This document shows, one piece after another, positions 2,656 to 63,107 of a DNA stretch of 64,000 nt. The notes under the pieces are model-generated. The model searched no databases, was not told the origin of the DNA, and saw only the letters and a program-made list of their open reading frames with translations. The translations under genes were made by a program, and so were the position numbers. The DNA is taken from the NCBI GenBank assembly GCA_029204225.1, contig CM055097.1, positions 31,896,802-31,960,801 on the forward strand. Direction: 5' to 3'. This DNA comes from Diphasiastrum complanatum (Eukaryota > Streptophyta > Lycopodiopsida > Lycopodiales > Lycopodiaceae). How positions within the stretch are numbered: the stretch's first letter is position 1; every line of letters starts with the position of its first letter.

Positions 2656-5600
2656 CAAAGTGGATTTGAATACCAAGACAGAAATGAGCTTCACCCAGAT
2701 CGTGGTCATGTAGAATTCAGAAGATAACATTGTCTTGTCTTCTTTTATCAGATCGGTACTGTTGCTGAAAAGCAATGTATCATCCACATACAAAGTGATA
2801 GTGATAATGATAAAAGATTGTTGCATTGTCTTGAAGTAAACATTTGAATCTGAAGAGCTAGGTGTGTAGCTATGATCAATAAGAAAAGTATTGATCCTTT
2901 GAAACCGTGCTTGAGCAGATTGCTTCAAGCCATAAAGTCCCTTATGAATTCTACACACATGATTGTGTTTACCCTTGATAATATAACCTTTGGATTGCAC
3001 TATGTAAATGTCTTCTTCAATAACTCCATTGAGATATGTTGTATGTACATCCATTTGATATATTTCCAAATCTGCAGCAGCAGCAAATGATAAAAAAAGT
3101 CGAATAGAAGAATGCTTGACTACTGGATTGAAAATCTCAATGTAATCGACATTGTATACCTGAGAAAGTCCTCTAGCAACAAGTCGGGCTTTTCTTCTGT
3201 CGATGCTTCCGTATGCTTTGTACTTGACTTTGAAAATCCATTTGCAATCAACTACGTTTCTGCTAGCAGGTAATTCGACAATCGTCCATGTCTGGTTCTT
3301 GATAAGAGATGAATACTCTTTATCCATAGCTTCTTTCCAAAGATCTAAATATGGCTGATTGAGTGCCTCTTTGACAGTTGTCGGCTCGTGAAGGTAGGCT
3401 GCAGACTCGTCGATATACCTGATAGGTGGTCTGCTAGCTCTTGATGATCTTTTGGAAAATAGAGAAAGTTGATCATTTTCATCATACTGTAGTTGCCGCG
3501 AATTGCAGCATCATCATCTTTTGATTTGCCGTTGATTTGTTGTTTGTCAAGAGTAGATGAGCTTGGTCCTTCAAGGGGAATAGTTGATTGAGGAATTGAA
3601 AAGTTCAATATGTTAGGAGAATCTAACAGGTCGGCTGGATGGGCTGCGTCTTTTCCCTTGAGGTCTTGAAACTGATCTTTGATGAAAATGTCATCTCGGC
3701 TAGTGAATACTTTCAAGTCGATGGGAGCGAACAACTTGTAGGCTTGATTTGAAATAGTGTAGCTGATGAAAATACATTTGATACTCTAGAAGTCGAGCTT
3801 CTTCCTAAGATCATGAAGAATCTGCGCATAAGCAGTACATCCAAAAACTCGTAAGTTTGATAAAGAAGGTTTGGTACCCGTCCAAACTTCGAATGGTGTT
3901 TTGTTTGAGAGACCTTTAGTAGGACATCTGTTCTGAATATAGGTTGCTGTTGAAACAACTTCAGCCCAGAAGGACTTCGGAAGTGTCGCATGTGATGACA
4001 TGCACTTTGCCGATTCGACTAAGGTTATGTTCTTTATCTCAGCAAGACCATTTGACTGAGGCAAATATGAGGTAATGTATTGTTGCTCAATGCCATTGTT
4101 AAGGCAATACTCCTTGAATTTGGTGGAGATGTATTCTCCCACGTTATCTGACCTCAGTGCTTCAATTTGTTTACCAGTCTGATTTTCTGGATGCTCTTTG
4201 AATTGTTTGAACTTGATGAAAGCCTCTGATTTCTGTTTAATAAATTAAACAACTGTTCGTCTGGAGAATTTGTCAATAAAGGTAATGAAATACTTTGCAT
4301 ATGGTAATGAAGAAGTTTGCATAGGTCCACATATATCTGTATGAACAACATCTAATAGACCTTTTGCTGCATGCCTATGACTTGTGATCTAAAAGAAATC
4401 CTAGTTTGCTTTCCAAGGATGCAGCTATGGAAGACAAGGAGATCAACTTTACCAGAAGGATAGTCGAGATCAAGAGCCATGGATTGTTTGGACATGTTTG
4501 AAACAGATGCATAACTCAAGTGTCCTAAGCGATGATGCCATAGTAATGCTTTATTGACAAGAACAGAGGTTTTCAAGGCTTGACTAGAATCAGAATAACA
4601 ATGTGCCATTGTATATAAGTATCCATGCCTCTTGCTAAGTGCAAGGATCTTATTACTCCTATTTATAATTCAGCATTGATCAAACTCAAACTCCACCTTA
4701 TGACCTAAATCTGTAATTCTACTTACTCATAACAGATTTGTAAAGAGTTTAGGAACATACAAGACTTTTGACAGTAGTTCGAATTGATCATGCCGAAATC
4801 TCAATCTTACAATACCTTCACCTTCGATAGTGTGAGTACTATTGTCACCAAGATGAACATACTTCTTTGTGCTGTAAGGCATATAGGATTGGAAAATCTC
4901 ACAATGATTGGTCATATGTTGAGTAGCTCCGAAAACCAGAAACCACGAATCATCTGAATTCACGTATTTGTCTTTGACTATAAAAGTGCCTTCGTCCATT
5001 TCGACTTGAGGAGATGCTGTAACTTTATTTGCTTGTTGATCAGGTTGCTTGGCTGCATTCTTTGCTTTGAGAATTCAACAATCCTGGATCTCATGGTTAT
5101 TGCGTTTGCAATACCTGCAAAACATCTTTTTCTTTGATGAATGTGGATTTGATGATTGTTTTGACTTTGAGTCTGTTTATGATTTGATGCAGACTGCTTG
5201 GAGCTTTTCTACCCCTTATTGACATATAGAGCATGAGACGAAGTGGTAGACAAAGTGTCTTGACTTCTTTGATTATCTTCTTGTAGCAACATAGTGATAA
5301 CTCTGATAAGAGTTAAATCTGAGTGTGTCATGATGATCATCACTTAGTTCTCATATGTAGAGGGCAGACTTGAAAGCAATGTCATTATTGCGTCTTGATC
5401 GTCTATGATTGATCCAACAACGACCATCTATTGCAAGAGATTTTTAAACTGGTTAATATGATTCTGAAGAGAATCACCATTTGACATCTTGAGTGTGAAG
5501 AATTTCCTTCGAAGATATAACTTGGTAGTTACGTCTCTCACATCATATAGTGAGTTCAGAATGTCCCAAACTTCTTTCGAAGTTTTAGCTTCAACTATGT

Positions 5601-10180: not shown

Positions 10181-12736
<2,556 letters not shown>

Positions 12737-12925
12737 GGAAGGGTCTAGAGACATCGGGACTTCGCACATGAGGGAGGTAAAAGCAACCCCCTCATCACAC
12801 GCTTGGAAGGGTCCAGAGACATCGCGACTTTGCACATGATGGGGGAAAAAGCAACCCCCTCATCACACACTTGAAAGGGTCCAATGACATCGTGCTGGGC
12901 AGAGAAGGGATCAGTTGCAGGGACC
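12737..12925. repeat. 68-bp tandem repeat, about 2.7 units
   Basis: Units start at 12737, 12805 and 12873 with GGAAGGGTC(T/C)AGAGACATCG or a near variant. Each contains AAAGCAACCCCCTCATCACAC in its second half. The third unit is partial. The array ends just before the left direct repeat of the Penelope-like element. Confidence 0.8.
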
Positions 12926-12985
12926 GACGCCTCAACATGATCCTTGAAGGTGGTGGTCCCGAACATTCGAGGTGGTGAGGTGGTG

Positions 12986-13332
<347 letters not shown>

Positions 13333-13641
13333 TGGAGGGAAGTTGAACTCTCACACCTTCCTGGATGCTACCAAACTTGACACTATAAGTGCAGGCTTTT
13401 TCGACACTTGGTTTCCACAATACCAGTGAAGAAGTTCTCTCCTCCACCACATGCTAAAAGTGCGCCCTACCAGTTCATTGATCGGCTGGTTGCGATCATA
13501 CGGTATGCATATCTTCCTCTTTTGCACTTCTTGTTATGCTCTACTCTCATAGTTAATGACATTCCGATAATCTTTAACTTATGTATTTTTGGTGCTCATC
13601 ATACGAAGGTATGATGGAGCCTTTGTGGAGTTAAGAGATGT

Positions 13642-14170
13642 AAGAGTCCAGCGATGGACTTCAATGGCTATTTTTGATAGGAAAAACTACCCATCCTGCA
13701 ACAATAGGCAGCGATGGTTTTCTTCTATCATAACGTTAACTCTTTGTGAGTTCAATCGACAAGGATGGCATACTGACCACCTATCCCAATACATAACTAC
13801 TCAATCTTGCTTAGTTGGCCAGCGATGGAGGGACACTCCATTTTCTTGCTTATTGCTTACTCCTTTTTATGAAGCTAGCCGTTGTCCAACGATGGATAGT
13901 CGGCCTCCTTTCGCAATGCAAATTGTTGTAAATGCATAATGTATGATTTTGACCAGCGATGGTCTATATGTCCCTGTTTGGAGGCAAGTTTATTCACCAT
14001 CATACTTTGTATTTACCCTGTTGTCCAACGATGGATAGGAGGAGCCTCTTTCTTGTATACTCTGAGAATTTATAAGGATTAATGGCTAACTGTCCAGCGA
14101 TGGACTGCAAATTGTTTTTATCATTTCAAATATGTTTTCATAGATATCCTCCTCTATCCAGCAATGGATG
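13642..14170 (+). repeat. Array of about eight short palindromes (CCAGCGATGG family) at near-regular spacing
   Basis: Palindrome units lie at about 13646-13661, 13707-13718, 13817-13829, 13884-13897, 13951-13964, 14022-14037, 14092-14105 and 14155-14169. The best ones read AGTCCA-GCGA-TGGACT, GACCA-GCGA-TGGTC, GTCCA-GCGA-TGGAC and ATCCA-GCAA-TGGAT. Four of these have GNRA-type four-base loops, and the stems differ between units by paired changes. Two units have an ACGA loop with a G-U closing pair, and two are weak. A further degenerate unit may sit near 13757-13769. Spacing is about 60-72 bp except for one gap of 110. The spacers are mostly unlike each other. The array lies in the leader of the Penelope-like element. 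I know of no named feature of this kind. Confidence 0.8.
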
Positions 14171-15003
14171 ATCGGCTACAATTAAGCTCAATACTGATGG
14201 CATATTGACTCTCTTTAAAGTGTTCACTTATGTTTGGTCTCATAATACAAAACTAATGATAGTGCATATTGTAGTTGCATCGTATTGCTCTGGCTTCTCC
14301 AAGTTACGGCTTGGTTCATATCTGAACGTAATACCAGTTATTTCAAGGTATGGCACCAACCAAATCTCCACAAAGCAACTTAGCTATTGTACTCCGAATA
14401 AGTCTTGTAAACATTCTATCTGTAATTTTGTGTGAATAGCTATATGCTAAAAAGTGTGTCTATTGGTGGTTTTATGATCTAAAAGAGAAAGAATTTCCTC
14501 GCTCAAAACAACCATAGCTGTCTCTCAAGAAGCTACGTCTACAACCATTCAGGTATTCTTTATGAGTTTAAGCAAACTCCTCGCATTCTTGGTGAGTATG
14601 GCAGTTTTAATTCCATATTTTTATGATGGGTCACTCGTCCACACAAGCTCATATGATAGGTCACTCTTCCACACAAACTCATATTTTTCTCTCTTCTTTT
14701 CTCTCAGTCTCCCTTTTTCAAAAAAAGAAATGACATAAAACCACACTTAGGTTGAACTAAAATCGATGTGTAGGAAGAAGAAGACAAAATTAGAAGACAA
14801 ATCAACGTTTCAGCAACTGGACATCTCCAATTCTCCACTAGTAGCGACTCAAGGAGACTTTTTTTGCATTTATGTTACCGAAATAGAGTATTTGACTTTA
14901 TCCATGTGAAGCATTTTTACGCTCATGTTTTACGCAAAATTTTTGGTACTATTGATGAACTCTTTTATGATATTACTTTTTATCTACCAAGTGTCAAAAG
15001 TGA

Positions 15004-16819
15004 ATGGTGGTTCCTTATGATGTGTTTTGCCAATTTGATATAGATAACCTTCATCCTTGTCAATGTTACACTTTTTACCGTTTCAAGAACTTTATCTCTG
15101 AAAAATTTGGCCATGTCGTTTGCACAGACTGTAAGATTATTAAGAGTTCTCTTTTACGAAAATCTTTAGAAAAAGGCCTAAATCATATAACTCTAAGACA
15201 AGCTAATGTGAATGAAGTCACTTTGGAGCTTTATGACGACAGATGGTTTAAACTTATGGGACTCCTTCCTTTTTATGATTCTTTAGACAGTAATACAAAA
15301 AAAGAGCATGTTACTTTTTGTAAGAAAATTGCTTTAAGTCATATTAGAAAGGGTAAATGGCTTCATGGAAATACTGGGTCTCTTTCTAAATATAGGATTG
15401 CAAAAGATGAGAGACTTTGGCTTACAAACTCCCTTTACGTGAATGGTATTGATAAAGCACAACATAATCCCTGTTTCATGTGTAAATTCTTCGCACGAAA
15501 TTTGGCCATTAAACGACTCAACAATCTAGATTTTACTCCTTTTCCTAACAGTCAATCTAATTATGTGGAGGATTCCTTGTCATAATGATAACGAACATTT
15601 CTACTTACTCTTTATTAGAAATTTTCTTGGGCAATAATTCTCTTCCTTATCTTCTCTGCACCTTTAAAGCCCACAAGGAGTCTTTTAGATGGATTACCAA
15701 TGCTCACGATTTCTGCTTTACCAAACTTGCCAAATTTCTCACAGGAGCTCTTGGTATGCTGTCACCATTCCTCATGGAAGGTGCATGCCTTAAGGCAAAT
15801 ACATACAAGAGTATCCTTAGAGCTGATACGATTTTATATTGGCAATGTGAGTCATCTATGGATTTCTACCTAAACTTACCATCTATGATTGTCAAAATGT
15901 GGGTCGCAAATATCTCAAAATGTTACAAGAATATACCCTTAGATGGCCTAGAGGGTCTAAAAACTGTTATGAAAAAGGCAATAAAATATGCATTTAAATA
16001 TTCCAGACATGAGCTTATGTACTTTAAATGGAAGCGAAACTTTCAATTGGTCATGGAATAAGAAGCAATCACAAGATTGGCACACTCTTGACATAAACCT
16101 ACTCTATCAATGGAACGACTTCTTGATTGATAATTGTATTGTCAGACTAGGGAACAAAACCTGGAGACAGATACAAGGTATTCCTATGGGTTTTTCTTGC
16201 TCACCCACGTGGTGCAATTGGTATCTATCTTTTTTTGAAGCACAATTTATTGAGAGACTTGCTAAATTGGGCCTGACCTCTTTCATGAATGACTTTCGAC
16301 ATTCTTTTAGATATATAGATAACATTTTCTTCATCAATAACCCTAATATAGAACTTTTTATGGACAAAACACAGGTAAGGAACCCTGAAAACCCTTTTTG
16401 GATCTAACCCCCTGGACATTCTAGAAATAGAGAGGAAAGTGACTGAAGGGAACAAGATCAGCTTTCTAACTATATCTATTACTTTCGATAATGAATCCGG
16501 CCTTACTTGCCTTTCAAAATATGACAAAAGAAGAGAACTACCCTTTCCATACCTACAATATATACATCTGGCTTCGAATAGACCAATCTATAATTCATGT
16601 AAGATTATTGTTTCACAGGTCACTGCCGCAATGTACTGCTATAACAAGCAAGAGACGTTTATTAATGAGGTTGGAATTCTTGTTGATGCTTTTCAAAAAA
16701 ATGGATTTATGAGAGATAAGCTCTATCGTATCATCAATAAATTGCTTACTTCGGAATCGTTTCCCGGTTTGTCGTACACTTTACCACATGACATTGATGT
16801 TCTTCTGGTGGGCAGTTAG
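15004..16819 (+). pseudogene. Reverse transcriptase region of Penelope-like element 1
   Basis: The N-terminal block (15004-15585) has a CxxC pair followed by a Lys/Arg-rich helix (SSLLRKSLEKGLNHITLR), as seen upstream of the RT in this class. The fingers (about 15585-15790) have LPYLLCTFKAHKESFRW. The palm carries GIPMGFSCSP (near 16180) and RYIDNIFF (near 16310), the latter standing in for the usual YxDD box. The segment 16400-16530 (LDILEIERKV, NKISFLTISITF) corresponds to the FLDxxI strand, and 16560-16760 forms the thumb (ASNRPIYNSCKIIVSQVTAA). Enzymatically the family makes cDNA from element RNA at a nick in target DNA. This copy is broken, and its catalytic box already deviates from consensus. 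Confidence 0.75.
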
Positions 16820-16847
16820 TTATCCCTTACAGGGAGCTAACTGCCCT
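16811..16847 (+). other. Strong hairpin overlapping the end of the RT region
   Basis: The perfect 10-bp arms GGGCAGTTAG (16811-16820) and CTAACTGCCC (16838-16847) enclose a nested TCCCT/AGGGA pair (16823-16827 and 16832-16836). The left arm overlaps the last codons of the RT frame. A third partial copy of the arm (CTAACTGCGGG) follows about 10 bp downstream. It may mark the 3' end of the element RNA or be recognised by the RT; that is inference. Confidence 0.8.
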
Positions 16848-16879
16848 CGAAAAGATTCACTAACTGCGGGTCGGTTGGT

Positions 16880-16882
<3 letters not shown>

Positions 16883-16937
<55 letters not shown>

Positions 16938-17127
16938 GGATGCTCCTTTGTTCAGTTTTCCCCTACTACACTAATAGAAAAGTGGACAAATACTAACGTA
17001 CCGCTCCTCCAAACTTACAAGGTCCTTGAATATATTCCACTCTTGTATATAATGAAGCCTTATTCTTTGTCAAGAGGGTTTCCCACTCAAAAATTTGAAT
17101 TGTTCTTCTTAAAAGATTTAAAAAAAA
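16883..17127 (+). repeat. Right direct repeat (pseudo-LTR) of Penelope-like element 1
   Basis: A (CT)n run (16883-16935, 53 bp) precedes the same ATGGATGCTCCTTTGTTCA segment as at 13135, ending in TTAAAAGATTT and an A-run. The unit differs from the left copy by a handful of substitutions, chiefly transitions, and by microsatellite length. Confidence 0.85.
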
Positions 17128-17379
17128 CCTGTAAAGAGGTCGTGTGCGGCTGCTGACTGAGTAGAGAGGTGGATCGGAATCTGTTAGGCTGCCATAGCCA
17201 TAACTTTTGAAGGAAAAGCTTGAAGAGAGGTGGAGATGGTGTGATGGAGGTCGCGGGCCAGTATGCGCGGCCAGTTGCGTTAGCCCTGTAGCGTGAGGAA
17301 GGGTGTAGCGATCCCAAAAAGTGAGGTTGGTGCACCTTAAGGTTTGTGATCGTTGGGCCTGTGCTGGCTGGCATCTCTT

Positions 17380-18400
17380 CGATGCCATCCACCCACGGCC
17401 ATAACACTTCTCCTCTTAGGATAAGTGATGTCTTTAACTTCCAAGCAAGAAAATTTGATCCGTCTGCTTCAAGTACTGTGCAAATCTTTGATTGGATGTT
17501 GTGAATGGAAGCCATTGTCTCAGTGACGCGGCTCTAATTAAGCCTTATGGATCTGATACCACTGTTGGAATCCCTCTGGAGCTGGAATGCTCCGATAGAG
17601 CCGAGCAATCTGGTTGCTCTGATATCATTGTTGGAATGCCTTTGCCGACGAGGGTTCCGACTAAGCTCAGATGGAGCCAATCTGTCGGATAAGACTACTA
17701 CCTCAAGCCACGATCAATCATCCTCCGAGCAGCAGATAGCTACTGCTAATCTGACAATGAGTTTATGAACATCAAATAATATCTAATGACAGCGAAAATA
17801 TATCTACTGGTAAAATTGAACAAGCATTACAACATTCAGAGATTGTGCATTGAGCAGAAAAGTGTAACTCGTTTATATTATCAAAATCGAGTGTATATCA
17901 GATATCTTTTACTTGAGCGCTGTCTGTTTCCCAGATCAGCGTGTCGACGTGAGAGAGGTGTTCTCTTCTCACGAAAGGAACTAGCTACTGCTAGATCTAT
18001 CTTGCTTCCTTGATACGCACCTCACTGAGTGTTGCGTTTAGGATTCTCTCGGTGTATATCTCTGTGTAAATGACTCTGATCCAATACATATATTATGCTG
18101 GATTGGATTACAAGGTTGGTTAGTTAAGTTTAAGCTAAGCATCTGTTTAAGTACGTTTCTGTTAACGTTGCATGGCGACGATGGATCGTGATAGTTTAAA
18201 AATTTCACGTCCGAGTAGTTGAGGTCCGATAGCTCGTTCATGCCCGATAGTTCGCCCTCACCCTGGCTTGCATATGGAGACTCTGAAATGTTGGCTTGAC
18301 TCGAAGTGTCGGTCCTCTGAGTATGTGGCAAAAAAGCCGAAGGTTGGCTAAAACAAAAATCTTGGGTCATTTTAGACCTATTGTCGCCTTTTTGCAGCAG
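17380..18400 (-). mobile_element. Copia 5' end fossil, family E (LTR, primer site, start of gag)
   Basis: On the minus strand a gag start (near 17515) contains IQSKICTVLEADGSNFLAWK and LKTSLILRGEVLWPW, typical of Copia gag N-termini. Upstream of it GTGGTATCAGATC (17550-17562) is a Met-tRNA primer site, directly after an LTR end reading CCAACA. The LTR extends rightward through 17564 to about 18400. A second primer-site-like motif with the same LTR end occurs near 17614-17634. The element is broken. A related gag lies at 50526-49740. Confidence 0.65.
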
Positions 18401-19600
18401 TCCAAAAAGACAAGGAAAAATACTAAGGCTTTAAAGTAGAAACTTAATGTTTCTTCATTAACATACTAGACCTCTCATTCCCAATACATCCTTAAACTAT
18501 GAGGATGAACCATACGGTATACAAGAGTTGTTCGAACATCATGAGAAGGATAGGACCGACTATATCTCCTCCTTAAGCTCATGATAGGAATGAAGACCAA
18601 AATCCTAATCAGCCACTCCTAATATTGGAAGGTCCAGACTTTCTAACCCTCACAAATTATATGAGGATCAACAAATGGCAAATACAAGTGGACAAAAGAG
18701 GGCTATGATATATGATAGAGATGACATCATAGATCAATTTCCCAATAACAAGCATGATTATGAGTAATGTGATTACCCATGCCTTTGATTCCACTTAGGG
18801 GATAAGGGATTGTGGGGATGTTTCCAGTTCCTCATTTGTATATGTTATATTGCTAACTTTGTTGTTTGGTGATTTTTTATGTTATAATGAATATACAATG
18901 TTTAAAAAATAATGATGATGGTCTTCGTGCACTCGGATTACTAACAAAATTCATTGTTTGGCCGATGTCCTTATTGCTCATTTCTCTCTCTTGGCAAGCG
19001 AGATGATGAATAAAAGACTACCCTTGTTTTAGGATACATGATTGGCCTCGTGACGGATACATTTTCCTAAAAATGTTCCTTAACATGTTAGGGTTTTTTT
19101 TTTTGGCGGGGGGATTTAGGTACTCTAACTTAGGGTGGTTTCACATGGAGTGGGGGGTAAGTCCAAAAGGCCCAAATCCTTTACTTTGATTGGTGGAGCC
19201 ACTTCAAGAGGCCTCCCCCTATTTCACAAGGAGTGAGAGTTGCCCCTAGGTGGCATTGAAAGGTGTCAAGGTGGGGTAAGTCAAGATACGAGGGGAGTAC
19301 CTTGGACCTCTTGGAGTATTGAGCGGTAGTGGTGGGCCTTCTCTATCTCCTCCAATGAAAACCATAAATACCTTATTTAATTTGAATTTAAATAATAAAT
19401 GCTGTGCCCTCCAAATGAAAAGGGGCTTTCACATGGAATGATTTGGAAGGACTTGGGCTTTTAAACCTGGGGTAAGTGCAATTTTTGAAATGGCCCTTGG
19501 AGAGTTGTGGTTTCAAAAATGAGGTAAGTTCCGATTTAGGTCGACTCTTGAGAGTTGTGGGTATTCGGATTTCGCACCAGGGCAGCCTCCTGTAGGCACA
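18401..19600. other. Intergenic region upstream of the HNH gene
   Basis: No gene is supported here. The sequence is of mixed composition, with a T-run and G-run near 19090. A possible TATA box for the downstream gene (GTATAAAG, 19602-19609) lies about 45 bp before its ATG. Confidence 0.4.
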
Positions 19601-45838: not shown

Positions 45839-47344
45839 TTGTTATCAGAATGGAAAACTAAAGTTCTAAATTATGTAACTTTGAGTTTGAAAAAAGTTTC
45901 ATCTGTCCCATCTTCTAATATTGATACTTCATTTTCTAATGAGGAAGTTGTTCGTAAGTTTCATAGACGTTTTGTCATTTTTATGTGGATAAATGCTCAA
46001 ACAATTTCTTATTTGTTTGCAAGAAATTCTATTTGGAATCGTTATTAAATGAAGTCCATTCTCCAGTAGGAACATATAACATTTGTTCTCTTTCAACTAT
46101 GAGTTTAATAAAATATCATCAAGATTTTTGTCATTCTTATAACTTAAATTGTTACCCAAATCTTCCTTTTCTTTGTGCTGCATGGAAATTTCATAAAGTT
46201 CCTCAAAGGCCTAGGTTTATTGCAGCAGCCTATAAAACTACGTTGACTGACCTTTCTAAGTGGCTAAGTAGTTGCTTCAAAGCGTTGCTTCCTTCTATTA
46301 TTGAGCTTTGGATACACTTACTTTAGGATGCAAATGTTCATGTTAGTTGTAGTTGGATTTTAAACGATTCTGTAAGTATTATAGAAGTAATAAAGTTTTT
46401 CAACTCCTCTCGTACTTTAGAAGAAAAGACCCAACATATGCTTCTTCAAACCTAGTTTCGTGTTAACAAGCTAATTCGAGATGTTTTTAGCAATAAACTA
46501 AAGGACACTCGATGCAAAGCTTTAGAAGTTGAAAAGAGTGTTTTGCATTTCGAGTTTTGTTGGCTTAAGAACAAAAATCAAGATGTCGATTCAAAGAAGA
46601 AAAGATTTACTAAAATAGTTGATGTTGAAGATGTTTGTTTGTTCTTGGCTGCACTTTCTCTTGGATAACTTGCATATTTCTCTAGGTGATTCGCTTTTTC
46701 AACAAACGATAGGTATTTGCATGGGTACTAATTGTGCTGTTCATCTAGCTAACTTTTATCTTTTCTCTTATGAATTTGAATTTATGCAAATATTAGTTTC
46801 TTGTGGTACTTGTCCCATCTTATTGCATGAATTAGCTCATGTTAGAAGATATATTGATGACTTATTTGTTCCTGATCTTCCTAATTTTGGTAGTTTTGTA
46901 TATAAAGACCCTAACGTTTTTGGTGGAGGAATCTGTCCTAAAGACTCATGTGAACTTAATCATACAACTAGTGATGATAAGTGCAATTTTTTAGACCTTT
47001 CTATAAGCCAGGGTAGGTCCGGTGTATTGGTTGATATTTTTGATAAAAGGCTGCAGCCAAAATATAGTAACTTGAACATAATTCGCATGCCTCATATTTC
47101 TTCAAATATTTTAGATTATGTTAAATATAGAGTGCTCACTTCTCAATTCTACAGGTTTTCTCGTCTTTGTACTAGTAGAGATGCTTTTGTAGACCAATCA
47201 AGCAATCTAATCATTTTGTTACTCCATAAGGGTTACACGTTTACGAAAATCATGAAAAAAGTTGTTTCAGCTTATGGTATGTTTAAGATGATTAATCATA
47301 GAATCCAGAAAAGTGGGGAGCTAAGGAGCCCGCTTTGTTTCTAG
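45839..47344 (+). pseudogene. Reverse transcriptase region of Penelope-like element 2
   Basis: The best-kept part is a 241-residue frame (46619-47344) covering the palm and thumb with the YIDD box. The upstream region (45839-46330) holds the N-terminal and finger motifs in more than one frame. The stop at 47342-47344 lies at the very start of the right pseudo-LTR, as expected if that repeat is the element's own 3' end. The enzyme class copies element RNA into DNA at the target. This copy is probably not functional as a whole. Confidence 0.78.
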
Positions 47345-60308: not shown

Positions 60309-63107
60309 TTGGTATCAGAGTCGTACAGGGAGTGTACACAGTACAACATCGCCGTTGAAGAGAGCTTTGGGAGAACTGTCTTCTGAGAGTTTGGGGTTTA
60401 CGGCGGACGGAAAGAGAAGCACTGGTGCACGGTTTCTAGTTTATAGAGGCTTGCTAAGCTCAGCAGAGGGATTATTAGCCTGTGCATAGCATCAGACAGG
60501 AAAAATTTTGGTAAAAAATTGACAATTTTGAAGCCAGCTGAAAATTGAAACTGGGTTTGGGGTTACGGTTTTTATACATAACTGGTGATTTCTTCGCTGT
60601 TTGTGCACCGTTTTGGATGCCGTAAGGACAGGAAGGAAGCTAATCACATTGTTAACCAGCCATGGAAAGATTCGGAGGTTTGTCTCAGAGATTTGTCTCC
60701 AGACAGTTAACCTATCAGATTTGCGGTAAAAGGTGAAAAAAGCCACTTTGTCAAGTTGAGCTAAAATCACCATTTCTCCACGGAATTTTTTGAGTGAACA
60801 CTCTACAGACTTGGAATCAGTAGGGTGAACCTGGTCTAGGCCTCAGATCATGCTCAAAGCGATCTATAGGCGAGCTAGATCAAACAAGAACGAGTGTGGG
60901 GAGGCGCGGCCGCAGACATGGAGGTGGCGGACTGTTCGCGCGTGGAACCAGGGTGAGAGCATAACGTTTTGGAGTGGGTAGCGCTTACAAGACTCTCCAT
61001 TGGTGCACAAGAGTGCTTAGATCCGCTGGATAGAGAAGCTACAAGATCGACGACTCAGATTGTGCTACCTAGAAGGGATATCCACAGTTGTATCAGATTC
61101 AACCATTGGATGGAGTCTAAAGGGTTGTTGAAGAGGGCCCTGAAGAAGTGAAGTGCATTTTAGCCTTCAACTTCATTAAAAACTTTTGTACTGAAATTGG
61201 AGTTGGGTCCCTTCACAAGTGAAGAGTGAAGTTTCTTCAAGGTGAAGAAACAGTTCAAAAACTAGAAAAGTCCCTATTTTTGGGTCCTTTGCCCGTTTTG
61301 AACCAAACGAAAGGCTATAACCTCCAAACGAAGGGCACCCGAACTGTACCTGCAAGTACGGTATATAAAAACAGAATAATTGCAGCGGAGAAAGTGTTTG
61401 GAGTACGCTAGAAGTGATTTCACCATCCCACTGGGCACGTTGTTGGGAGTTGACGATTGAGTGCATTTCGGAAGGCGACGTCGATTTGGCTTTCAAATTG
61501 GTGGAAAAGTGGCGAGTGGCCTGGTAAGGGAAAAAGTGCAGGTCATTATTTTCAACTTCTGACATCACTGTTGGCCTCGACATACTGTTTTTAGCTTACG
61601 ACAGAAGTTTCAAGCAGTTTTGCGATGACAAACATGAGAGAGTCCATTTTGAGTGAAAGTAGCAAATTGGACGGGATTTCTAACTATGCAGTGTGGAAAT
61701 TCAAAATGAAAAACATACTGATGGAGAAAGACGTGTGGGAATTTATCACATGTGATGAGAGGAGACCTTTGCGCCGGTTTGTAAGTGGAATACTCTACAT
61801 CTACTTGTTGCTTTAGCTTCACATTTTGGTTGGCCTTTGCATTAGATGGATGTGAAATCTGGTTTTCTAAATGGTGAGTTAGAAGAAGTGTTCATGCATC
61901 AATCTGAAGGCTTTGTAGCGAAGGGATAGGAAAATAAAGTATGTCGCTTGAAGAAAGCGCTTTATGGTCTTAAACAAGCACCACGTGCGTGGTATAGCAG
62001 GATTGATGCCTACTTTCATTCAAAGGGGATGGTCAGAACACATTATGATCCAAATCTTTAAGTCTTATGCTTTGATGGTATGGTTGCTTTGATTGCTCTT
62101 TATGTTGATAGCTTGATTATTACGGAAAATAATCAAGAGATGATAGACATGATCAAAAAAGACCTCATGGAACAATTCGAGATGACAGATCTCAGCCTGA
62201 TGCATTACTGCCTTGGAGTAGAAGTGTGGCAAAAAGGACATGAAGTGGGTTTAACACAGGTGAAGTATGTCAAAGAGTTGCTGCACAGGTTTAGGTTGCA
62301 GGATTGCAAACCAGTAAACACTCCTATTGAACCAAGTAAAAAGCTTTCTAAGCCTGATGAGTCACAGTCATTTGATGCTACGCTGTATAGACAGTTAGTA
62401 GGGAGCTTGATTTACCTTACCACAACTAGACCAGATATATGCTATGCTGTTGGCATTGTAAGTCAATTTATGGTAGCACCTACGGAAACGCATTGGAAGG
62501 CAGCTAAACGCATTTTGCGTTATGTGAAAGGCACTTCAGAGTATGGCTTGATTTATAGGAAGCATGATGGTTTACCTGAGTTGTGTGGCTACGTGGATGC
62601 GGATTGGGGAGGTGACTATGATGATCGTAGATCCACCACAGGGTATGTATTCCAGTTTTGTGGTAGTTGTTTTTCCTGGTCTAGTAAGAAGCAAAGTACA
62701 ATTGCTCTTTCCACCATAGAAGCAGAGTATAAGACAATGTGTAGTGCAGCACAGGAAGCTATATGGTTGAGACAAATCTTGGAAGAAATTGGCATGAAGC
62801 AGAAAAATCCCACGACTTTACATAGCGACAGTCAGAGTGACATTCAGCTAGCAAAGAATCCAGTGTTCCATGCGAGAACTAAACACATTGAGATTCAGTA
62901 TCACTTTATACGTGAGAGGCTGCTGAGTCGTGAAATTCATGTTGTTCATTGTAGCACAGAAGAACAACTAGCTGATATTTTCACTAAGCCACTTACTGGA
63001 GAAAAGTTTGATAAGTTTAGATCAAAGCTTTCTGTACTTAAAGTTTGTTGACTTTAAAGCTATGTATATGACTGTATAAAAAGTAGACTCTACTTTAAGG
63101 GAGAGAG

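Follow-up and report, generated by a model that had tools for sequence, protein, structure and literature searches.

An array of eight copies of a short motif occupies conserved positions upstream of the first open reading frame (ORF1) of an element that looks Penelope-like in the genome of Diphasiastrum complanatum. We tentatively propose that the array acts in cis in a plant Penelope-like retrotransposon, within which it is conserved, and that its intronic motifs single out unspliced RNA for use as the reverse-transcription template, a reading that we regard as possible but somewhat short of probable. Relative to the original prediction made from this DNA, the predicted intronic place of the array and a second, covarying array in the same element are new.

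Eight motifs in an element that looks Penelope-like

The window, by which we mean the whole 64-kb stretch of DNA analysed, contains nine matches to CCAGCGATGG with at most one mismatch when both strands are searched, eight of them on the plus strand at 13648-14167 and the ninth isolated at 60656; in 100 dinucleotide shuffles of the whole window such matches numbered 1.30 on average and never more than 4. Successive motif starts are 60, 111, 67, 67, 72, 69 and 64 nt apart. The eight plus-strand motifs, set against 1.30 expected, confirm the array of eight palindromes originally predicted, the predicted series of intervals is matched to within 1 bp, and the stems GTCCA/TGGAC, GACCA/TGGTC and ATCCA/TGGAT are all present in the window. 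The loops had been described as GCGA or GCAA, both of GNRA type, and this holds for six of the eight (GCGA five times, GCAA once) but not for the two ACGA loops at 13886 and 14025. The unit at 13708 has the form GCA...TGG, in which the third stem pair is missing and a full CCA/TGG stem is impossible. The features of the element are as follows (^ marks a predicted splice point).

12989..13134, plus strand: (CT)n tract directly 5' of the pseudo-LTR (73 copies of TC, from TRF)
13135..13326, plus strand: 5' pseudo-LTR (pLTR) proper, 192 nt, direct repeat D1
13503..14274, plus strand: predicted intron 1, from sequence only, with donor ATACG^GTATGC and acceptor TTGTAG^; the entire array lies within it
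13648..13657, plus strand: motif 1, CCAGCGATGG, in GTCCA-GCGA-TGGAC
13675..13730, plus strand: longer hairpin replacing the tetraloop stem at motif 2, GCAGCGATGG, which lies at 13708-13717; covariation in 19 copies
13819..13828, plus strand: motif 3, CCAGCGATGG; Watson-Crick pair 0:9 missing in 19 of 20 copies
13886..13895, plus strand: motif 4, CCAACGATGG, ACGA loop
13953..13962, plus strand: motif 5, CCAGCGATGG, GACCA/TGGTC
14025..14034, plus strand: motif 6, CCAACGATGG, ACGA loop
14094..14103, plus strand: motif 7, CCAGCGATGG
14158..14167, plus strand: motif 8, CCAGCAATGG, ATCCA/TGGAT
14348..14349, plus strand: donor-like site 2, CAAG^GT, from the alignment of copies
14514..14552, plus strand: first coding stretch of ORF1 (exon 3), ending CATTCAG^GTATTC; start codon lost in the window copy
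14749..14761, plus strand: internal deletion junction, about 2.29 kb missing relative to copy L013
15004..16819, plus strand: broken reverse transcriptase (RT), in pieces 15004-15585, 15585-16061, 15988-16407 and 16439-16819
16801..16855, plus strand: imperfect inverted repeat I1 at the RT end, 19-nt arms, 84%
16883..17127, plus strand: second (CT)n tract and 3' pLTR, ending at an A-rich tract upstream of where an array would start

The element occupies the region 13135-17127, from (CT)n and pLTR on its 5' side to a second (CT)n and pLTR ending at 17127. The tract at 12989..13134 is the probable start region of the element RNA, and (CT)n is found within 900 nt upstream of 17 of the 41 arrays described below, several of which have little upstream sequence. 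Direct and partly tandem pLTR copies are a Penelope-type feature and both are found here: D1, which including the end of the (CT)n tract is 227 nt long, has 96% identity to 16901-17127, and copies L011 and L019 have the tandem order RT-pLTR-array. The array starts approximately 320 nt downstream of the point that matches the end of the 3' pLTR copy. Relative to L013, the 2.29-kb deletion in the window copy took most of predicted intron 3, with the second hairpin array, as well as the main ORF1 exon.

When ORF1 and RT pieces were compared with Pfam, NCBIfam and PDB, the sole RT-related family above noise was RVT_1, which matched the 462-aa open RT piece of L069 with an E-value of 4.8e-6 at 26.9 bits, below the Pfam cut-off of 29.6; this piece has the residues YVDD. 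The RT piece gave no meaningful match in PDB, and a search for the RT in plasmid records found none. No GIY-YIG domain was detected in 11 pieces of the element (4 + 5 + 2), whose reading frames are broken and were scanned in pieces. Comparison of window positions 12000-18500 with Rfam at E up to 5 gave three sub-threshold, chance-like matches to known RNA families, none of them a hammerhead ribozyme, and at E up to 1 there was no match, and so no hammerhead, in L011, L013, L022, L028 and L037. A hammerhead in the pLTR is common, and not universal, in Penelope-like elements. The element as a whole looks Penelope-like, in support of the identity first assigned to it.

We note that the window contains a second, distant Penelope-like RT piece at 46619-47344, with 30% identity to L069 over 222 aligned positions, and Copia-like reading frames elsewhere. 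An inverted repeat GGTTC...GAACC is located shortly 5' of donor 2 (window 14313-14328, where the right arm reads GAACG) and recurs in many of 16 aligned copies.

Conservation of the array among copies

A search of the genome (1.74 Gb in 5176 contigs) found 670 pairs of exact motifs 40-65 nt apart (291+379), compared with 1+0 for a reversed control pattern. From these places we took 20 stretches of 8 kb and 20 of about 1.5 kb, in contigs C1-C3 only, which with the window make 41 sequences; they yield 41 arrays of at least three motifs, some sequences containing two arrays and three containing none, and the motif is present in them by construction. The arrays fall into nine groups not joined at 80 bits, with 25, 6, 3 and 2 members and five singles. 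The arrangement recurs across distant groups, such as families A and B, with (CT)n upstream of the array and a shared ORF1 start downstream of it.

When the largest group was aligned (23 of its 25 arrays, omitting L024 and the second of the two L017 arrays), conservation was 0.918 for motif columns, 0.733 for the four flanking bases on each side and 0.634 for the spacers, although the selection of most copies by two exact motifs inflates the value for the motif. The eight best-conserved 11-mers within 13560-14280 in this alignment are the eight motifs, and the eight sites have the same orientation wherever they are present. These values agree with the earlier view that the spacers differ while the motif is kept, which is not how an evenly decayed satellite would look. 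A neutral tandem repeat that expanded locally and then decayed has in its favor that the array probably arose by duplication: L017 and L033 have extra motifs 22 nt from a neighbor, local duplications that show how arrays grow, and in family B second motifs lie at 11 nt. Such a repeat would nonetheless have to account for motifs at 0.918 against spacers at 0.634 and for the same eight positions in distant copies, and we consider it very improbable. Intervals within the array have standard deviations of 3.5-15 nt, looser than one neighboring interval (donor 2 to ATG, 3.5 nt) and tighter than another (last motif to donor 2, 57 nt), so the near-regular spacing speaks neither for nor against a length ruler.

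Because these arrays had been chosen by motif, we added a sample independent of the array. The end of exon 3 (its last 30 nt, with at most three mismatches) occurs at 613 places genome-wide, with none for the control; the window's own exon-3 end (C6:31911324-31911353) is among the perfect matches, and 12 copies, all perfect matches, were taken by this sequence alone. Ten of the 12 have between two and eight motifs (8, 3, 7, 3, 7, 7, 2, 8, 4 and 5), and the other two start downstream of the array and are 5'-truncated, as judged by eye; they look like truncations and not like splice products. An absence of the array from other copies, which would have favored a chance or local repeat, is thus not what is seen, as copies elsewhere carry it at the same place.

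Among 261 distinct motif instances the most constant positions are A2, A6, T7 and G8 (255-260 of 261), and the outer C is present in 204. The first loop position is G in 214, A in 40 and T in 7; of the variant loops ACGA is the most frequent (33 of 261), followed by GCAA and GTGA with 15 each, and since CpG transitions of GCGA yield both of the latter, they do little to support a GNRA constraint. A10 is found in 233 instances and its pairing partner T in 158. With the 3' arm (ATGGA) better conserved than its pairing partner and the loop variable, CARCGATGGA is more strictly kept than the stem; the kept feature is this sequence, more than a GNRA-looped hairpin, and the proposal that a hairpin with such a loop is what is kept is not supported. 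The motif also forms a strong start-codon context, with a purine at -3 in 254 of 261 and G at +4 in 236, and conservation reaches the CA ahead of this context. Auxin-response and other plant binding sites were considered and set aside as seemingly ill-fitting in spacing or core.

Clusters of CCAGCGATGG that are GA- or GC-rich, with short irregular spacing and other surroundings, occur in L007 and L049-L055; they were set aside by eye as not of the same array class. Those in L007, L052 and L053 adjoin (GA)n or (CT)n, and L007 contains plant-type telomere repeats.

Pairing within the array and a second hairpin type

Folding of the array as RNA receives partial support. The whole array folds better than its dinucleotide shuffles (z -3.36, 0 of 100 shuffles as good); of the eight sites folded singly, three have z below -2.5, one has -2.0 and four are above -1.3. 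Across 177 distinct units the outer pairs -1:10 and -2:11 are Watson-Crick in 106 and 91, compared with 91 and 73 in shuffled columns (p 0.0005 and 0.001). Within orthologous sites the excess for the pairs from -1:10 to -5:14 has z of 1.8, 2.7, 1.7, 0.1 and 1.8. Outer-pair covariation beyond site 2 is modest, and there is none for the inner pairs 1:8 and 0:9 (z -0.5 and -0.3), which hardly vary. Pair 0:9 is Watson-Crick in 19/19, 18/21, 22/23, 19/21, 17/21 and 17/18 copies at six of the sites, in 0/19 at site 2 and in 1/20 at site 3, where one further copy has a T-G wobble; it is therefore missing in 38 of the 39 instances of sites 2 and 3, this wobble included, and two of the eight sites lack the CCA/TGG closing stem. 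The claim that the stem is kept by paired base changes thus has some support, from the outer pairs and from a long hairpin at site 2, and none from the near-invariant inner pairs; local stems are not universal.

Site 2 folds as a longer imperfect hairpin with another stem-loop between its two arms. Of 22 rows extracted for this site 19 were used, L036, L038 and L044 being left out (two are short, and L038 has a deletion before the site). In these copies 76.9% of cells are paired, compared with 69.7% in shuffles (0/500 as high), and the covariation score is 0.190 compared with 0.115 (0/500) and at most 0.130 for slid versions of the structure; the structure was drawn from the fold of one copy, and relatedness alone can inflate these measures. 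Two of the five measures show no excess, namely pairs with changes on both sides (8 compared with 6.9 in shuffles, 124/500) and further pair types (22 compared with 20.6, 142/500), and a slide of +3 exceeds the site-2 structure on both (10 and 23). RNAalifold predicts three pairs from the same 19 rows. Closure of domains by pairing of a motif's right arm with the left arm of the next motif was rejected, there being no excess over shuffles beyond the core-adjacent pair.

Counts of G-U against A-C cells (21 and 27, 10 and 6, 28 and 24) reveal no preference for a fold of the sense strand, and as the two are about equally frequent the data do not indicate which strand folds. An array acting in DNA, as a downstream promoter or enhancer at which a sequence-specific DNA-binding protein has eight sites, would fit these wobble counts and the better conservation of sequence than of stem. 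It fits less well with the shared orientation of the eight sites in aligned copies, which is unusual for transcription-factor arrays, and with the position of site 2 inside a long, imperfect, covarying hairpin, and we judge it unlikely. The hairpins could also make the array a source of small RNAs, as inverted repeats cut by Dicer, but their stems are only about 5 bp, far too short for Dicer substrates, and this we think extremely improbable.

Fuller copies have a second hairpin type in predicted intron 3 (L013 2700-3100; L022 2930 and 3189; L011, L019, L037 and others). It consists of 3 bp, a 1-nt bulge, 5 bp, a 3-nt bulge and 4 bp closed by a YGGAUY loop. In 16 instances, 14 in predicted intron 3 and 2 upstream of the pLTR (L015 and L022), it covaries strongly: 93.2% of cells are paired, compared with 79.3% in shuffles (0/500), and covariation is 0.466 compared with 0.207 (0/500) and at most 0.164 for slid versions, in rows whose choice by loop and fold favors structure. 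Further pair types show no excess (15 compared with 13.4). Searching 35 sources with a covariance model gave 25 matches at E < 1e-6, including the 16 training rows, and none in the window (best E 0.57), whose copy lacks this array because of the 2.29 kb deleted at 14749/14761.

Predicted introns, a possible template signal and known systems

The ORF1 start stretch AACAATGGCAGCCTCTCAAGAAGC...CATTCAG^GTATG follows 22 of the 41 arrays, which come from the largest group, family B (L011 and L029), the group of three (L041, L045 and L046) and L026; 21 of the 22 have the ATG and 20 have GT at donor 3. The main ORF1 exon starts at TTTTAG^TCCACAGGG with a stop codon just upstream, and its conserved protein starts before any methionine and joins exon 3 in phase. 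The ORF1 protein (STGWFQEAAALGYGEPLPPPN..., L010 3433-4362 on the minus strand) has no match in Pfam, NCBIfam or PDB; the L010 protein has matches in L009, L013, L020 and L022. A noncoding stretch precedes the main exon (L013 3275-3640, with matching segments in L009, L011, L020, L022 and L010) and is similar between distant families in several reading frames, some with stops. In L022 an upstream repeat at 1359-1562 resembles this stretch at 3399-3607 (77%) and is possibly a rearranged promoter region.

Of the 41 arrays, 23 have a donor-like site with at most two mismatches at 60-260 nt upstream of the first motif, and none was found for the other 18; GT is kept in 19 of the 23, some of which may be chance matches. 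The largest group and family B (L011, L019 and L032) have the type ATACG^GTATGC, or T in its last position, and variants are AAG^GTAAGC in L030 and ACG^GTAAGT in L047. Downstream, an acceptor-like (G/A)TAG is present in 14 of 16 aligned rows (11 TGTAG, 3 TATAG); this short motif is the weakest of the predicted splice sites. Because of these donor-like and acceptor-like sites the array is placed in a predicted intron at 13503-14274, so that it probably lies in an intron upstream of ORF1; the earlier placement in the element's leader holds as to the position upstream of ORF1 and is sharpened to a predicted intron of that leader.

The start of exon 4 is found at 346 places genome-wide (control 6). 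A search for spliced retrocopies by the exon 3-exon 4 junction gave nine places, all with three mismatches, compared with 299 for the control; as it tolerated no more than three mismatches in 23 nt, older spliced copies that have changed further would escape it. Conservation of splice-site-like sequences in genomic copies, with no spliced copy found, is consistent with intron retention.

The array could instead remain in the mRNA as a translation-control leader, with its ATGs and hairpins serving as upstream ORFs or as an entry or shunting structure, for which the long leaders of plant pararetroviruses offer a comparison. The conserved core provides a strong context for initiation, the distance from the last motif to the ORF1 start is 345-390 nt in 13 of the 16 arrays of the largest group in which that start was found, and the median open stretch in the ATG frame is 16 codons compared with 11.5 and 12 in the other frames. 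The frames are not kept, however, as 91 of 157 ATG frames stop before the next motif, compared with 101 and 105 for the others; conservation has no consistent codon periodicity and extends to the CA ahead of the start context, and a 5' splice site-like sequence lies upstream of the array. We consider this reading improbable. Upstream ORFs with kept peptides were rejected on the lack of consistent periodicity and on stops that come no earlier than in other frames.

The proposal that the motifs mark the reverse-transcription template starts from the presence of the array, its eight conserved orthologous positions, its partial pairing, its place between splice-site-like sequences and the failure to find a spliced retrocopy, and it supposes functional splice sites, a protein that binds the motifs and selection of the template through this binding. 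Lying between a predicted 5' splice site and the ORF1 start codon, the array would be removed from the mRNA by splicing and so would be present only in unspliced RNA. There the RT or ORF1 protein of the element itself, or else a host factor, would bind the CARCGATGGA units, of which six can form short hairpins and one sits within the longer hairpin, and this binding would mark the unspliced RNA for reverse transcription. The eight ATGs in strong start context may keep this RNA from being translated, and splicing would free the mRNA of these eight start-like ATGs.

The same positional evidence would suit an intronic splicing or retention element, whose motifs bind an RNA-binding protein of host or element and set the level of unspliced RNA without being a template-recognition site. 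Repeated short motifs in one orientation may favor the cooperative binding that this would involve, but a place beside the pLTR is equally expected for template recognition, and we give this reading only a small chance. An extension of the template-marking proposal, that two introns of one Penelope-like element each carry an array of hairpin motifs and that both arrays are the RT's signal for unspliced RNA, seems to us doubtful.

If true, marking of unspliced RNA as template would explain why Penelope-like elements keep introns despite moving through RNA, and would make a switch, coupled to splicing, from mRNA to template or back. The motif, repeated, conserved and restricted to a predicted intron, is a concrete, testable candidate cis element for intron retention, and 670 motif pairs and 613 exon-3 places in one genome offer good statistical power.

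The retroviral packaging and export signals psi and RRE are likewise located in introns, as structured RNA that only unspliced transcripts contain and that marks the genome; the likeness is one of working only, as retroviruses are a different element class and packaging and export are not part of the present case. Athena and Coprina are of the endonuclease-lacking Penelope-like type, EN(-)PLE. In the titles and abstract beginnings of the literature searched no such array is described. EN(-)PLE are recorded for Selaginella, pine and spruce in excerpts of PMC9033089, and Athena is named in those of PMC3846280. They resemble the present element in an RT in which no GIY-YIG domain is detected, in direct pLTR repeats, in introns that are probably retained and in a plant host; these excerpts do not mention an array located in an intron or a second covarying hairpin array, both of which are proposed here from sequence.

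PAc, a Penelope-like element of Anolis, has an RNA stretch just downstream of its pLTR that its protein requires, and reverse transcription begins inside the RNA, according to the excerpted text of Frangieh et al. 2024 (PMC11167929). Unlike the present element, the minimal PAc RNA requires the first 172 nt of the PAc ORF, and PAc has a hammerhead ribozyme and a GIY-YIG domain, neither of which was detected here; as a point against the template reading, the present array is farther from the pLTR end (about 320 nt) than the Anolis binding segment, and a repeated motif array, present here, is not reported in the same excerpts. For the Penelope elements of Adineta vaga, intron retention is noted in the excerpted text of PMC3846280, which poses an antisense transcript or an unspliced sense transcript as alternatives for the template and in that text proposes no cis element selecting unspliced RNA. 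The arrays described here may be the cis signal for the second of these alternatives, the unspliced sense template.
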